NCBI GenBank assembly: GCA_016794785.1
Contig: JAEUHC010000013.1
Location: 1-64,000 of the forward strand
Direction of reading: 5' to 3'
DNA: 64,000 nt
DNA from: Opitutaceae bacterium
GTDB lineage: Bacteria > Verrucomicrobiota > Verrucomicrobiia > Opitutales > Opitutaceae
Shown here piece by piece: positions 21,259-52,994 of the stretch; the first letter of the stretch is position 1, and each line of letters starts with the position of its first letter. The notes below the pieces were generated by a model. The model was not told the origin of the DNA, made no database searches, and saw nothing but the letters and a program-made list of their open reading frames with translations. The translations under genes and the position numbers were made by a program.

Positions 21259-22401
21259 TCACCAGCCCAGGATGTTGAAGACCACCGCGAACACCGCGTC
21301 CGCCACAATCACGAGCAGGATGGAGGTCACGACGGCCGAGGTCGCCGCCAGGCCGACGCCCGCGGCGCTGCGCTCCGCCTGGAACCCGCGCCAGCAGCTC
21401 GCGACCGCGATGAGCAGGCCGAACACGATCGACTTGAGCAGGCCCGAGTTCAGGTCCGAGAGATCGACGATGCTCTGCGTCTCGATCCAGTAGGCGGCGG
21501 GCGGGATATCGAGCACGCCCGAGCCCACGGCCATGCCACCGAGGATGCCCAGGCCATCGGCGTAGAGCGCAAGCAGCGGCATCATGATCGTCAGCGCCAC
21601 GATCCGGGGCAGCACCAGAAAATCAACCGGAGGGATGCCGAGCGTCTCGAGCGCATCGACCTCCTCGTTGGCCTTCATGTTGGCGAGAGTCGCGGCAAAG
21701 GCCGCCCCGGTGCGCCCGGCGAGGATGATGGCCGCCATCATCGGCCCCATCTCGCGCACGACCGAGAGGCCCACGAGGTCGGCCACGTAGATGTCGGCGC
21801 CAAACTGCCGCAGCTGCACCGCCGCCTGATAGGCCATGATGAGACCCACGAGAAAACTGATCAGGCTGACGATCGGCAGGGCCATCGCGCCGCACTGCTG
21901 CATCTCATGGAGGCAGTCGCCCCAGCGAAAATCGCGAGGGCGGCGGATCAGCCGCGCGACCCCCAGCACGCATTCACCGAGGAACCGCGAGGCGGTCCGC
22001 GCCTGCGCCCAGGTGCCGAACGTCACGTGCCCGACCCCGGCGATGAAGCTGTCCGCCCGAGCCACCGCCGGGCGGGGACGGTGCGCGGCGCCGAATTGAT
22101 CGAGCAGCGCGCCGATTTTTTCCGGGAGGGCCGAGGCATCGCATTCCGCGCCGGCCGCGCGGCACCATTCCTTCACCTCGAAAAGAAACAGCAGCAGCGA
22201 CGTGTCCCAGGTCTCCAGTCCCTCGACGCGCAGCCGCACGCCCGCCGGGCGGGCCGATCCGCGCACCTTGGCCCAGGCCGGCCGTGGCTCGGTGACCTGC
22301 CACACCCCTCCGACCACGACATCAAGCCGGTCGTCGGCCTCGATTGCGGTGGCGCGCGCCTCCCCTGTTTCCAAAGCCTCGGGCATCGCGATGGACTCCA
22401 C
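21259..22401 (-). CDS. mlaE: MlaE-family permease with N-terminal STAS-like domain
   Basis: A 380-residue inner-membrane permease. Residues 150-380 form the MlaE fold with about five membrane segments and the signature EMGPMMAAIILAGRTGAAFAATLANMKANEEVDALETLGIPP. Residues 1-115 look like a STAS (MlaB-like) domain: RLRVEGLETWDTSLLLFLFEVKEWCRAAG has the typical strand-helix with an Asp-Thr-Ser. In E. coli MlaB is a separate protein bound to MlaF; here it appears fused to the permease. First gene of the mlaE-mlaF-mlaD-lipoprotein operon, divergent from the HAD phosphatase gene. Confidence 0.92.
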   Translation of the reverse strand: MESIAMPEALETGEARATAIEADDRLDVVVGGVWQVTEPRPAWAKVRGSARPAGVRLRVEGLETWDTSLLLFLFEVKEWCRAAGAECDASALPEKIGALLDQFGAAHRPRPAVARADSFIAGVGHVTFGTWAQARTASRFLGECVLGVARLIRRPRDFRWGDCLHEMQQCGAMALPIVSLISFLVGLIMAYQAAVQLRQFGADIYVADLVGLSVVREMGPMMAAIILAGRTGAAFAATLANMKANEEVDALETLGIPPVDFLVLPRIVALTIMMPLLALYADGLGILGGMAVGSGVLDIPPAAYWIETQSIVDLSDLNSGLLKSIVFGLLIAVASCWRGFQAERSAAGVGLAATSAVVTSILLVIVADAVFAVVFNILGW

Positions 22402-22563
22402 CCTTCACACCCGCCCGCGCCAAACCAATTCTCGCGGGCTGGGGGGCGGGGGATGCATCGCGCCTTTCGTCCCGTCTGCGCCGCGGCGGTTCCGCGGCCG
22501 GCGCGATTTCTTTGCCGCGCGGGCTTGCGCCGGCCACGACAGCCGGCCGCAATCGCGGGCCCC

Positions 22564-23220
22564 ATGCGCCGCTTTTCCACGCTCCTGCTCGACCTCGACG
22601 GCACGCTCGTCGATGCGTTCACCACGATTCATCGCGGGTATTGCCACGCGCTGCCGCAGTTCGGCGTGCCGGCCCCCACGATGGCGCAGGTCCGCCGCGC
22701 GGTCGGCGGCGGCATCCACCAGGCGATGGCGCATTTCCTGCCCGCCGAGAAAATCCCCGCCGCCGTGGCCCTGCACGTCGCCTACTCGGACTCGATCCTG
22801 CTCGAGGATGTCACCCTCCTGCCCGGCGCGATGGAGCTGCTCCGCGCGCAGCATGCGGCGGGCGTGACGCTCGCGGTGTTCACCAACAAGCGCGGCGAGC
22901 ACGCCCGCCGCATCTGCGATCACCTCGGGGTGACGCCGCTGGTCCGCGGGGTCTTCGGCGCGCGCGACACCGCGTGGCTAAAACCGCAGCCCGAGTTCGC
23001 CGCCCACGTCCTCGCGCAGCTCGGCGCCAGCGCCGAATCGACCATGCTCGTCGGCGACTCGCCCTTCGACGTGCAGGCCGCGCACAACGGCGGCTTCCCC
23101 TGCTGGTGCGTCACCACCGGCACGCATGACGCCGCGGAGCTGCGCGCCGCGCAGGCCGACGCCGTGTTTCCCAACCTCGCCGCGCTCCACCGCGCGCTCG
23201 AAGCGCCGGTCGCGGGCTAA
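22564..23220 (+). CDS. HAD hydrolase, phosphoglycolate phosphatase-like
   Basis: A 218-residue HAD-superfamily phosphatase starting at MRRFSTLLLD. Motif I is LDLDGTLVD (8-16) with both catalytic Asp residues, motif II FTNKR, motif III the Lys in AWLKPQPEFAAHVL, motif IV MLVGDSPFDVQAAHNGG. The helical cap inserted after motif I puts it in the Gph/beta-phosphoglucomutase subfamily. It would hydrolyse phosphoglycolate or a similar small phosphate ester. Its stop overlaps that of the convergent DUF2721 gene. Confidence 0.88.
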   Translation: MRRFSTLLLDLDGTLVDAFTTIHRGYCHALPQFGVPAPTMAQVRRAVGGGIHQAMAHFLPAEKIPAAVALHVAYSDSILLEDVTLLPGAMELLRAQHAAGVTLAVFTNKRGEHARRICDHLGVTPLVRGVFGARDTAWLKPQPEFAAHVLAQLGASAESTMLVGDSPFDVQAAHNGGFPCWCVTTGTHDAAELRAAQADAVFPNLAALHRALEAPVAG

Positions 23221-23678
23221 TCTTCGATCTTCACCCGCGCGCGGTCGACTTCGAGCCGCAGCGCCCAGAGCGACATCCACACATCGCGCAGGAAGGCCAC
23301 CAACGCCGCGAAGAGGCACACCACGCTGCCGAGGAACACCACCACCAGCGGCGCCGCGAAATTCCGCGCCGCCGCCACGTCCACGAAGATCGCCATCACC
23401 AGCAGGCAGGAGAGCAGCATGCTCAGGCCCGCGAGGGTGACCGCGATGCGAATCAGCTTCGCGCGCCGCCAGAGGATGTTGAGCTGATTCTCGAAATGCC
23501 CGCGGTCGGCGGCGTCCGCCGCCCGCACCTTTTCCGCCAGCCCCCGCGTGCGATCGACGATGCGGCCCATGCGGTTGGTCAGCGTGAGCATGAGCGCGCC
23601 GACGCCGGAGATCAGAATCACCGGCGTGATCGCGAGCTGGATGACGGGCAAATAGGAGTTGGCGGACGCGGGTTCCAT
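23217..23678 (-). CDS. DUF2721 family membrane protein
   Basis: A 153-residue integral membrane protein starting at MEPASANSYLPVIQLA. Three hydrophobic segments (about 10-30, 75-95 and 100-125) alternate with the conserved cytoplasmic block LTNRMGRIVDRTRGL and NQLNILWRRAKLIR, which is diagnostic of DUF2721. Function unknown. Convergent with the phosphatase gene, their stop codons overlapping by two bases. Divergent from recD2. Confidence 0.85.
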   Translation of the reverse strand: MEPASANSYLPVIQLAITPVILISGVGALMLTLTNRMGRIVDRTRGLAEKVRAADAADRGHFENQLNILWRRAKLIRIAVTLAGLSMLLSCLLVMAIFVDVAAARNFAAPLVVVFLGSVVCLFAALVAFLRDVWMSLWALRLEVDRARVKIED

Positions 23679-23722
23679 CGCCCGCAGCCTGCCGCGCCCG
23701 CGGCGGTGCGGGCAACACCGGT

Positions 23723-26700
23723 TTGCAACGCCGCCCAAAGCCGTTTCACCTCGGCCTCCCCGTGCCTCCGCCCGCCCCCTCCTCCGCCTCCGCCACGCTC
23801 ACCGGCGTGCTTGAGCGCATCATTTTTCTCAACGAGGAGAACCACTACACCATCGCGGAATTCCGGCCCGACTTGCCGCCCGCGGCGCGCGCTGACGCCA
23901 AGGCCCGCGCCGAGCTCGTCACCATCGTCGGCGCACTGCCGAGCGTGGAGTGCGGCGAGACGCTCCATCTCACCGGCGAGTGGACGCGCCACGCGCAGCA
24001 CGGCGCGCAGTTCAAGATCGCGGCGTTCAAGAGCGAGCTGCCCGCCTCCGTTTACGGCATCCGCAAATACCTCGGCAGCGGCCTCGTGCCCGGCATCGGC
24101 AAGGTTTACGCCAACAAGATCGTCGATGCCTTCGGCACCGACACCTTCCGCGTCCTCAGCGAGGAATCCGGCCGGCTGCGCGACGTCGAGGGCATCGGCA
24201 AGAAACGCGCCACCGCGATCAAGCAGGCCTGGGACGCCAAGCGCACGGAGCGCGAGCTCTACATTTTTCTCCAGACCTACGGCGTCACGCCCTCGCAGTG
24301 CCTGAAGCTCGTGAAGCACTTCGGCCCCGGCGCGAAGACCATCCTCACCACCGAGCCCTACCGCGCCGCCCGCGAGATCGACGGCATCGGCTTCAAGACC
24401 GCCGACCGCATCGCCATCAACCTCGGCTTCGCCAACGACGCCCCCCCGCGGCTCGACGCCGGCCTCATCTACGCGCTCGAGACCCTGCAGGAGGATGGGC
24501 ACACCGCCTACCGCGAGGCCGATCTCGTCACCCACGCCGCCGGCCTGCTGGAAACCGACTCCCGCTTCCTCGAAGCCCGCATCGCGGCCCTCGTCGAGAA
24601 CAAGTCCATCGTCCGCCACTGGCCGATCCTTGGAGACGCGGCGCCCTCGCCGCGTTCGGGCCGCGCCGAGGGCGGCGCGGCTCCAAACCAACCCCTGCCC
24701 GGCTCCGGCCTCGTGCAGCTCCCGCACAACGACCGCGCCGAGCAAAAAATCGCCGGCACCGTCGCCCGCCTCGCGCGCGTGCCCAGCGGCCTCCCGCCCA
24801 TCAAGATCGATGCTGCGGTCGAGTGGGCGGAGAAAAAGGCCGGCTTCGAATTCGCCGAGCTCCAGCGCACCGCCCTCCGCGCCGCCCTCGCGCACAAGCT
24901 CTCGATCCTCACCGGCGGGCCCGGCACGGGGAAAGCCCAGCCTCTCGACGCCCGCGTGCTCACCCCCACCGGTTTCCGCGCCATCGGCGAGCTACGCCCC
25001 GGCGACCTCGTCATCGCTGCCGAAGGCCAAGCCGTCGCCGTGCGCAGCATCCATCCGCAGGGCAAGAAACCGACCTACCGCGTCATTTTCGCCGATGGTC
25101 GCGCCACTCGTTGCTGCGACGATCACCTCTGGCGCGTCTGGACGCGCACCTCCGTTTGGAGCCCGGAGAAAAGGAAAAAAATCCGTTCTCGCGGCTGGCG
25201 GGTCCTCCCCCTCAGCACCATCCGCCGGCGTATCGACCTCGACCGCACCGAGTGTGCTCGCCTCGGCATTCCTCTCCTCACGGCTTCGTTCGGCGAAGCA
25301 CCCGTCCCGCTTCCTATCGATCCCTACATCCTCGGGGCACTCATCGGCGATGGCACCCTAAGCGACGCCGTGCTCATCACCACGACCGATTCCGCCCTCG
25401 TGGCCAGTCTCTCCGCCCGCCTCCAATCGCTCGACTTGCGTCTGAAGCAAGTCATCTCGGCCGGAGTCCCGACGATTTCGTGGCGCATCGTCGGCCGCGG
25501 AAAAGGGTTCCCCAACCCTCTCCGCGAAGCCCTGAAAACCCTCGGCCTCTCCGTCAAATCTCACGCCAAGTTCATCCCCCCCGCTTACCTTTTTGCCTCT
25601 GCCACGCAGCGCCTCGATCTCCTCCGCGGCCTCCTCGATACCGATGGCACAGTCGATAAACTCGGGGTCGTTTCGTTTACCACGTCCAGTCCTCGCCTTG
25701 CTGAAGATTTCCAACACCTCGCCTGGTCCCTCGGCTGCATCGCCACCCGTGGTGTCGTCAAACATCCGACCTACACCCACCGCGGAAAAAAACTCACCGG
25801 GCTCCCCGCGCACACCATTTTTCTCCAACACCCCGCGCCTGGCAGCCTCTTCAGCCTCGAACGAAAAATCCGCCGCACCTGCCGCCCGAAAGCCCGGGCG
25901 CGCCTCGGCCATCGCCTCCGTCTCACGGCCGTCGAGCCCGCCGGCGAAGCCGAATGCTGCTGTATCTCGATTGATTCACCCACCGGGCTCTACGTGACGG
26001 ATGATTACATCGTCACGCATAACACCACCATCCTCCGCGCGCTCGTCGAAATCCTGAAGGCCAAGCAGGTCCGCGTGCATCTCGCCGCGCCCACCGGCCG
26101 CGCTGCGCAGCGGCTCAGCGCCACCACTGGCGGCTTCGCCACCACCATCCACCGCCTGCTCGGCTACGACGCCGCGGCCGGCGGCTTCCTCGCCACTGAC
26201 GACAAGCCCCTCGCCACCGATTTCCTCATCGTGGACGAGGCCTCGATGCTCGACAACCGCCTCGCCGCCGCGCTGCTCCAGGCCGTCCCGTCGCGCGCCC
26301 ACGTCCTCCTCGTCGGCGACACCGATCAGCTCCCCAGTGTCGGCGCCGGCAATGTGCTCAAGGATCTGATCGCGGCCAGTGGCTCGGTTGGGGACGCGGC
26401 GCCCTCGCCGCGTTCCGGCCGCGGCGAAGGCGCCGCAGCTCCAGCCATCCCCGTCACCCGCCTCTCCGTCATCTTTCGCCAGCAGGGCCAGTCGCAGATC
26501 GTCACCACCGCGCACGCGATCAACGCCGGCGAGCCCAAGGCCCCGCCGGTCGCCGCCGAGGTCTCCGCCGCCCAAGTCTGGGCCGATCTCAACTTCATCG
26601 CCGCGAGCGACGCCGAGGACTGCGTGCGCAAGGTCCTCCAGCTCGTGACCGAGTTCATCCCGCAGAAATTGAAATGGCCGCACCCGATCCACGACGTGCA

Positions 26701-27232
26701 GGTGCTCGCGCCGATGCACAAGGGCGTCGCCGGCGTCGCCAACCTCAACACGCAGCTCCAGGCCGCCCTCAATGCCCACGGCCGCGGCCTGCGCGCCGGT
26801 GGCGCGGAGTTTCGCGTGGGCGACAAGGTCATCCAGCTGCGCAACAATTACGACAAGGCCATCTTCAACGGCGACATCGGCACCGTCGTCTCCGCCGATC
26901 CCGCCGCGGGCGCGCTCGAGGTGGACTTCGACGGCACGCGCCAGCCCTTGGAGCGCGGCGAGCTGGGCGACCTCGCGCCCGCCTACGCCATCAGCATTCA
27001 CAAGAGCCAGGGCAGCGAGTATCCCGTCGTGATCGTGCCGCTGCTGAAGGCGCACTTCATGATGCTCCAGCGCAACCTGCTCTACACCGCGATCACGCGC
27101 GGGAAGAAAAAGGTCTTCCTCGTCGGCGACCCCGCCGCCTACGCGATGGCCGTGCGCAACGCGGAGTCGAAGACGCGCTGCACGCACCTCCGCGAGAAAA
27201 TCGCTGCGCTAGCGCAGCGCTCAGCAGGCTAA
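23723..27232 (+). CDS. recD2: RecD2-type helicase (ExoV alpha-like) containing an intein
   Basis: An SF1B 5'-3' DNA helicase of the RecD2/YrrC type. Precursor 1169 residues; about 806 after removal of the 363-residue intein (405-767). The extein has tandem helix-hairpin-helix motifs (LVPGIGKVYANKIV, LRDVEGIGKKRATAIK, AREIDGIGFKTADRIA), then Walker A GGPGTGK-[intein]-TT, Walker B FLIVDEASMLD, motif III VLLVGDTDQLPSVGAGNVL, and the last motif AYAISIHKSQGSEYPVVIVPLL. Two 53-bp palindromic elements are in frame, encoding Gly304-Pro321 and Gly890-Pro907. Starts: TTG at 23723, or GTG at 23762, which fits RecD2 homologues at least as well. Numbering is from 23723. Function depends on intein splicing because the ATP loop is split. 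Confidence 0.95.
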   Translation: MQRRPKPFHLGLPVPPPAPSSASATLTGVLERIIFLNEENHYTIAEFRPDLPPAARADAKARAELVTIVGALPSVECGETLHLTGEWTRHAQHGAQFKIAAFKSELPASVYGIRKYLGSGLVPGIGKVYANKIVDAFGTDTFRVLSEESGRLRDVEGIGKKRATAIKQAWDAKRTERELYIFLQTYGVTPSQCLKLVKHFGPGAKTILTTEPYRAAREIDGIGFKTADRIAINLGFANDAPPRLDAGLIYALETLQEDGHTAYREADLVTHAAGLLETDSRFLEARIAALVENKSIVRHWPILGDAAPSPRSGRAEGGAAPNQPLPGSGLVQLPHNDRAEQKIAGTVARLARVPSGLPPIKIDAAVEWAEKKAGFEFAELQRTALRAALAHKLSILTGGPGTGKAQPLDARVLTPTGFRAIGELRPGDLVIAAEGQAVAVRSIHPQGKKPTYRVIFADGRATRCCDDHLWRVWTRTSVWSPEKRKKIRSRGWRVLPLSTIRRRIDLDRTECARLGIPLLTASFGEAPVPLPIDPYILGALIGDGTLSDAVLITTTDSALVASLSARLQSLDLRLKQVISAGVPTISWRIVGRGKGFPNPLREALKTLGLSVKSHAKFIPPAYLFASATQRLDLLRGLLDTDGTVDKLGVVSFTTSSPRLAEDFQHLAWSLGCIATRGVVKHPTYTHRGKKLTGLPAHTIFLQHPAPGSLFSLERKIRRTCRPKARARLGHRLRLTAVEPAGEAECCCISIDSPTGLYVTDDYIVTHNTTILRALVEILKAKQVRVHLAAPTGRAAQRLSATTGGFATTIHRLLGYDAAAGGFLATDDKPLATDFLIVDEASMLDNRLAAALLQAVPSRAHVLLVGDTDQLPSVGAGNVLKDLIAASGSVGDAAPSPRSGRGEGAAAPAIPVTRLSVIFRQQGQSQIVTTAHAINAGEPKAPPVAAEVSAAQVWADLNFIAASDAEDCVRKVLQLVTEFIPQKLKWPHPIHDVQVLAPMHKGVAGVANLNTQLQAALNAHGRGLRAGGAEFRVGDKVIQLRNNYDKAIFNGDIGTVVSADPAAGALEVDFDGTRQPLERGELGDLAPAYAISIHKSQGSEYPVVIVPLLKAHFMMLQRNLLYTAITRGKKKVFLVGDPAAYAMAVRNAESKTRCTHLREKIAALAQRSAG
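24632..24684. repeat. Intragenic 53-bp palindromic element 1 in recD2
   Basis: Two hairpins in inverted orientation: head GGAG with CGCGGCG-CCCT-CGCCGCG, spacer TTCGGGC, then CGCGCCG-AGGG-CGGCGCG and head CTCC. It encodes GDAAPSPRSGRAEGGAAP in frame, in a loop between the helix-hairpin-helix region and the first RecA domain. It is about 87% identical by eye to the second copy at 26390-26442, with the same length and frame. Confidence 0.8.
24935..26023 (+). mobile_element. Ala1 intein with LAGLIDADG-type homing endonuclease
   Basis: A 363-residue in-frame insertion between Lys404 and Thr768 of the RecD2 Walker A motif; removing it restores GGPGTGKTT. It begins with Ala (AQPLDARVLTPTGF... GELRPGD, splicing block A) instead of Cys or Ser, and block B has a His in CCDDHLW. 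The dodecapeptide motifs are LGALIGDG (537-544) and RGLLDTDG (635-642), both keeping their acidic residues. It ends DDYIVTHN with the splicing His-Asn, followed by Thr as +1 nucleophile. Ala1 inteins bypass the first acyl shift. The DNA is visibly richer in A runs (for example 25170-25185) than the surrounding gene, suggesting transfer. Confidence 0.95.
26390..26442. repeat. Intragenic 53-bp palindromic element 2 in recD2
   Basis: Second copy of the twin-hairpin element, head GGGG/CTCC, stems CGCGGCG/CGCCGCG and CGCGGCG/GCGCCGC with variants. It encodes GDAAPSPRSGRGEGAAAP in the same reading frame as copy 1, between NVLKDLIAASG and IPVTRLSVIFRQ, which are contiguous in usual RecD2 proteins. 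Confidence 0.8.
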
Positions 27233-27245
27233 ACCGATCGCGTCC

Positions 27246-52768: not shown

Positions 52769-52789
52769 CGGTGGCGCGACTCGCGGCGC

Positions 52790-52890
52790 CTGCTGTTTCC
52801 TTCGTCGGCATGATCCGTTCAGGTTCGAAGGGTCGAGCGGCCGGGCGTGCCACTAATCTCAGCCCCGCGCGCGGGGCTCCCCTACAGGCG
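52790..52890 (-). promoter_or_regulatory. TPP riboswitch (THI box)
   Basis: Read on the minus strand the conserved parts are in order. First CTGT, the outer stem, paired with ACAG at the other end, then GGGGAGCCCC and GGGGCTGAGAT. After a variable loop come ACCC, GAACCTGA, then CGGATCATGCCGACGAAGGAAAC. These match the TPP aptamer (GGGGCTGAGA and GAACCTGATCTGGATAATGCC-type cores). The aptamer ends about 80 bases before the receptor start codon. Confidence 0.93.
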
Positions 52891-52994
52891 CCGGCACGAA
52901 ACGGCGGCCGATTCTGCCGCGCAAGCGCAATCTGCGTCAGAAATGGATCGCAAAGGCAGAGAGAGCCGCAGCCACCCCTGCCCGACGGAGGCCT

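Follow-up and report, generated by a model that had tools for sequence, protein, structure and literature searches.

Inspection of a 64,000 nt stretch of an Opitutaceae bacterium genome (contig JAEUHC010000013.1; hereafter the window) located a gene for the helicase RecD2 that carries an in-frame insert in its ATP-binding loop. The features of this locus are listed in Table 1. The RecD2 frame is open throughout and comprises 1169 codons counted from the first possible start; the genuine start may lie further in. The protein scored 738 bits against the TIGR01448 RecD2 equivalog model (cut-off 500), with matching stretches flanking the insert on both sides, and the Pfam domains HHH_RecD2, OB_YrrC, SH3_13 and UvrD_C_2 were recognized in it. 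The score above the TIGR01448 cut-off and the presence of the HHH, OB and SH3 domains identify the host protein as RecD2. The insert corresponds to residues 405-767 of the frame (363 codons), starts with AQPL and ends with VTHN. Translation of the frame places it between the Lys and the Thr of the Walker A motif (GGPGTGK/TT, the slash marking the insertion point).

Table 1. Features of the window mentioned in the text (position 1 is the first nucleotide of the window)
Feature	Position	Strand	Remarks
RecD2 helicase precursor frame (N-extein, intein and C-extein)	23723..27232	+	True start codon uncertain
N-extein, residues 1-404, last residues GGPGTGK	23723..24934	+	Codon of Lys404 (Walker A lysine) at 24932-24934
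Walker A, first half, GGPGTGK	24914..24934	+	Loop uninterrupted in 56 relatives
Intein, predicted class 3, with LAGLIDADG homing endonuclease; 363 aa, A1...THN	24935..26023	+	
Splicing block B, RATRCCDDHLWRVW: C60, C61, catalytic H64, W66 (Trp of WCT)	25100..25141	+	Aligned with class 3 and gp41-1 structures
LAGLIDADG motif 1 (block C), YILGALIGDGT, catalytic acid D139	25325..25357	+	D139 in 17/17
Block D lysine K212	25568..25570	+	Invariant in 17/17 RecD2 inteins and 96/96 relatives
LAGLIDADG motif 2 (block E), LLRGLLDTDGTV, catalytic acid D237	25619..25654	+	D237 in 16/17
Splicing block F, C341-C342-C343, ISIDSPTGLYVTD	25955..26002	+	C343 at 25961-25963, predicted first nucleophile, Cys of WCT (F:4)
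Splicing block G, DYIVTHN: T361 (Thr of WCT, G:5), H362, cyclising N363	26003..26023	+	T, H and N invariant in 17/17
Walker A, second half, TT	26024..26029	+	
C-extein, residues 768-1169, first residues TTILRAL; +1 residue Thr768	26024..27229	+	Thr768 codon begins at 26024
Palindromic element, first copy	24632..24685		Within the N-extein
Palindromic element, second copy	26390..26443		Within the C-extein
TPP riboswitch	52780..52893	-	55.5 bits

When compared alone with Pfam, the insert matched LAGLIDADG_3 (1.8e-9) and, weakly, Hint_2; when compared with the sequences of solved structures, it matched the gp41-1 intein and the M. smegmatis DnaB intein. Among the relatives whose site was readable, 56 that are intein-free showed an uninterrupted GGPGTGKT loop at the insertion site. 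The insert DNA had a GC content of 64.0%, compared with 69.6-69.7% for the exteins, and the contrast was stronger at third codon positions (0.744 versus 0.91). A search of the same genome for additional intein copies found this single copy only. On these sequence criteria the insert in the RecD2 ATP-binding loop is confirmed to be an intein. A preliminary description of the window, made from its letters alone, had proposed just such an intein in an unbroken RecD2 frame, less GC-rich than its flanks, the removal of which would restore Walker A and leave a protein of 806 residues. Its boundaries proved exact to the nucleotide, the spliced length was correct, and the profile and structure searches, the alignment with relatives and the base composition all bore it out.

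Full-length relatives of the intein were present in 17 of the 252 Opitutaceae genomes inspected (this copy included; the others were 60-96% identical to it) and absent from the other 235, although some of these calls may be wrong since many of these genomes were probably assembled from metagenomes; the genome studied here is itself listed with 6.4% contamination. In all 17 the host is RecD2, the intein lies between GGPGTGK and TT, is 363 aa long and has Ala as its first residue. The 17 sequences aligned without a single gap, and 119 of the 363 columns were invariant, among them A1, H64, W66, D139, K212, D235, C341, C343, T361, H362 and N363.

Class 3 inteins are defined by the lack of a nucleophile at position 1 and by a WCT triplet at positions B:12, F:4 and G:5 (PMC5050341, PMC7664689). 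No RecD2 intein has Cys or Ser at position 1, and the triplet is complete, with W66 at B:12, C343 at F:4 and T361 at G:5. The register was fixed by alignment to the M. smegmatis DnaBi1 intein (6bs8), in which the third Cys of the CCC run, C343, falls on the known catalytic Cys; the nucleophile of DnaBi1 is Cys118 (PMC6195587). The remaining splicing residues are also in place: the block B His (H64), the C-terminal His-Asn pair (H362-N363) and, immediately after it, a nucleophile (Thr768). Among 96 other relatives the His was present in all, and the Trp and the Cys equivalent to C343 in 92 each. An AlphaFold2 model of the intein (mean pLDDT 86.6) showed a HINT fold that VIA-align superimposed on 6bs8 with an rmsd of 1.6 Å over 123 of 125 residues (Z 19.7); among the class 3 DnaB inteins matched, the rmsd of the splicing domain was 1.6-2.0 Å. 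The best overall fold match was the yeast VMA intein PI-SceI, aligned over the whole chain (about 338 residues, Z 27.4), which likewise combines a splicing domain with a LAGLIDADG endonuclease but is a class 1 intein with Cys1, shares only 18-19% identity and occupies another site in another host. Since Ala1 is accompanied by the full WCT signature and by this fold match, the RecD2 insert is predicted to be a class 3 rather than a class 2 intein, with the internal Cys343, and not the +1 residue, as the predicted first nucleophile.

The RecD2 intein resembles the mycobacterial DnaB class 3 inteins (MsmDnaBi1, 6bs8; MchDnaB1, 6rix) in its WCT triplet, block F Cys nucleophile, THN end and non-nucleophilic first residue, and DnaBi1 also in its P-loop location (PMC6195587). 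Unlike those, which are mini-inteins lacking an endonuclease and hosted by DnaB, it contains a full LAGLIDADG endonuclease. The block B motif also differs, being CxxH instead of the DxxH of the mycobacterial DnaB inteins. DxxH has been described as usual for class 3 block B (PMC12245125), although the class definition does not require it. The idea that CxxH might be a speciality of RecD2 inteins was discarded, the motif being common among relatives. Since 65 of the 96 relatives have it too, CxxH looks like a branch-wide variant and not like damage.

The cysteines surrounding the active site invite a regulatory reading, according to which C60 and C61, next to His64, and C341, next to the nucleophile C343, would form a redox or metal trap; their oxidation or metal binding would pause splicing, keeping RecD2 ATP-blind and delaying its activation under stress. 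H2O2, acting through the catalytic Cys (PMC6195587), and zinc (PMC7360933) both inhibit the class 3 P-loop intein DnaBi1. Further, C60, C61, C341 and C343 are invariant in the 17 RecD2 inteins, and C341 is far less conserved elsewhere (30 of 96 relatives). However, C60 and C61 are common across the wider intein family, 235 of the 252 Opitutaceae genomes searched lack the intein, and the movement of the element, described below, is parasite-like. Conditional 'control' of the helicase by its intein, which the preliminary description had stated outright as post-translational control by a parasite, is plausible but speculative, and a stress-responsive trap made of these cysteines seems unlikely. 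Were it true, an actively homing parasite would double as a sensor.

A class 2 (KlbA-like) route, in which the +1 residue Thr768 would attack the N-terminal junction directly with no internal nucleophile, is far less probable. Ala1 is common to class 2 inteins, that of MjaKlbA included, and the +1 residue is a nucleophile, but class 2 is marked by Ala1 without WCT or a block F Cys. MjaKlbA lacks the WCT signature, its +1 residue attacking directly (PMC7664689), whereas in the RecD2 inteins the WCT residues and the block F Cys are invariant in 17 of 17. Exactly this triplet identifies class 3 inteins (PMC7664689, PMC5050341), and the fold matches of the splicing domain include class 3 DnaB inteins. 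The preliminary description had read a variant splicing route from Ala1; the variant route stands, but Ala1 alone does not fix which one, and it is W66, C343 and T361 that point to class 3.

As a class 3 intein, the insert would be excised as follows. Cys343, with His64 and Thr361 as partners and Trp66 holding it, would attack the Lys404-Ala1 bond to give a first branched thioester. The N-extein would then pass to Thr768, cyclisation of Asn363 would release the intein, and an acyl shift would leave Lys404 joined to Thr768, restoring GGPGTGKTT. The predicted targets of the LAGLIDADG endonuclease (D139, D237) are the P-loop codons of recD2 alleles that lack the intein; after cleavage, repair by recombination would copy the intein into them. 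We infer actual splicing, actual cutting and an ATPase-inactive precursor. Splicing is very probably required before the helicase can bind ATP, given the position of the insert in the P-loop and the precedent of RadA, whose P-loop intein is reported, as cited in PMC6195587, to disrupt ATPase function. Taking this predicted splicing and homing account as a whole, we estimate at about 0.9 the probability that the RecD2 P-loop houses a mobile class 3 intein.

The RecD2 exteins of two carriers of the same genus (this genome and that labeled G020) are under purifying selection (dN/dS 0.16-0.20), as expected if the spliced protein is used. dN/dS was similar in the splicing and endonuclease parts of the intein (about 0.10-0.26), which fits an endonuclease still under selection, and cutting is predicted. 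Both LAGLIDADG-type motifs keep their acids, as the preliminary description had observed, D139 being present in 17 of 17 copies and D237 in 16 of 17. The exception is the intein of genome G070 (L044), in which residue 237 changed from Asp to Gly while the rest of the intein is intact; here the endonuclease is decaying although the splicing residues persist. Decay therefore occurs in this intein family, and the insert studied here might be imagined to be a decayed one that fails to splice, or only cleaves, leaving the Opitutaceae bacterium with an inactive RecD2; yet all its splicing residues are intact, the 17 copies contain no stop codon and the exteins are under purifying selection, so this is very improbable.

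The mobility of the intein was analysed on a 73-row tree of RecD2, in which 17 rows are carriers and 56 are empty alleles. To explain the presence of the intein, 15 changes were needed, and starred branches forced at least 14 of these; this is no fewer than under random labels, and the parsimony count does not separate gains from losses. The intein and extein trees were in conflict: the intein of genome G164 grouped with the inteins of g65 (support 100/99), a grouping that the extein data rejected (p-AU 2e-59), while the intein data rejected the host grouping (p-AU 1e-4); these p-values are optimistic, since the clades were chosen after the trees had been seen. With the nearest carrier, G020, the intein DNA was 97.2% identical, with a dS of only 0.062, while the dS was 0.25-0.27 for the exteins and 0.27-0.36 for four neighboring genes. 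An intein dS of 0.06 against an extein dS of 0.26 argues for recent horizontal movement, and the best reading of these sequences is that the host genes had long separated when the intein passed between these lineages or reached both of them from a shared source. The distribution and phylogeny, as far as the sequences sampled go, are not explained unless the intein was repeatedly gained or lost and was transferred horizontally. The preliminary description had said only that homing may still be possible; this can be strengthened to repeated and recent movement.

It might be argued, instead, that the intein is old, vertically inherited and slowly evolving, so that its low divergence from G020 would not derive from transfer. 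G020 does belong to the same genus, and the two trees agree there. However, in all ten other pairs tested the intein dS exceeded that of the exteins (ratio 1.1-2.8), the exteins and neighboring genes of the G020 pair have a dS of 0.25-0.36, the trees conflict elsewhere, presence changes 15 times on the RecD2 tree and sister species have empty sites, making slow vertical descent a most improbable explanation. Seven occupied/empty pairs of alleles showed no consistent pattern of co-conversion footprints near the junction. Synteny between this genome and G020 breaks just downstream of RecD2 (window 27208-27245 versus G020:C67 about 21449-25067), where about 3.6 kb are present in G020 only.

The 17 RecD2 inteins form a single clade, with full support, separate from phage inteins. 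A scan of genome contigs with the single protein matched only the record of G020, an Opitutaceae metagenome-assembled genome. A phylum-wide draw of 388 genomes yielded few relatives outside Opitutaceae; these were hosted by other proteins, several of them at GVGK/S. Those labeled L057-L060 and L063 lie at GVGK/ST of a shared P-loop ATPase, which is possibly phage-derived.

Relatives also occur in phages. A tblastn search matched 501 phage records, many from jumbo phages, the best being about 41% identical over the full length. Scanned against viral contigs, the single protein found five distant matches and the alignment 238, the best 80 of which were taken further. Of 64 full-length relatives in viral contigs, 61 lay at GK/T or GK/S, and most had an AQP start. 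The Lys-Thr bond of the P-loop is one of the classic sites at which inteins are known to insert (PMC5050341). The phage P-loop inteins of class 3 type, such as those of Pseudomonas phage PhiPA3 (gp233, an SNF2 helicase), Proteus phage 10, Xanthomonas phage LucasX and many IMG/VR contigs, share with the RecD2 intein the AQPL start, the GK/...THN/T or S arrangement in Walker A, the length and the endonuclease motifs, with about 35-41% full-length identity; they differ in their hosts, which in annotated phages are helicases, terminases and other proteins, other ATPases included. The terminase intein of Caulobacter phage phiCbK (PMC3556154) likewise lacks Cys or Ser at position 1 and lies between a conserved Lys and a Ser, but starts with Pro. 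No close or recent phage donor was found, the viral relatives being at most about 41% identical in the tblastn search and at most about 40% among the best 80 of the 238 matches of the alignment scan. A plasmid scan gave 28 records, at most 39% identical. Several of them, from Enterobacterales and an uncultured bacterium (H48-H52), contain a full-length relative with 34% identity, annotated inside traD in one case.

No report of an intein in RecD2 was found in the literature searched, in which papers mentioning RecD2 and inteins together concern other genes; few subscription journals were covered, and 'unreported' is provisional. RecD2 is apparently an unreported host protein for class 3 inteins, while the element itself belongs to a known, phage-rich intein kind. 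The 17 occupied and 56 sampled empty alleles make up an unusually clear natural series, in which a single element recurs at a single bond within one bacterial family and the host gene offers a yardstick for dating the gain, loss and transfer of the intein and the decay of its endonuclease. They also tie a bacterial chromosomal gene to a large pool of phage inteins, nearly all at GK/T or GK/S of unrelated ATPases.

Two minor features of the window deserve mention. The RecD2 gene contains two copies of a palindromic interspersed element of about 55-60 nt (TGGRGACGCGGCGCCCTCGCCGCG...CGCGGCGAGGGCGCCGCGNCTCCA), both translated in frame as GDAAPSPRSGRxEGxAAP and both forming a strong hairpin (z -4.2 and -3.3). 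Its arm had 40 matches (at most two mismatches) in the same genome, compared with none for the reversed pattern, and the element was not seen in the other 72 RecD2 proteins examined. Far downstream, a TPP riboswitch was detected with a score just over the Rfam gathering score.
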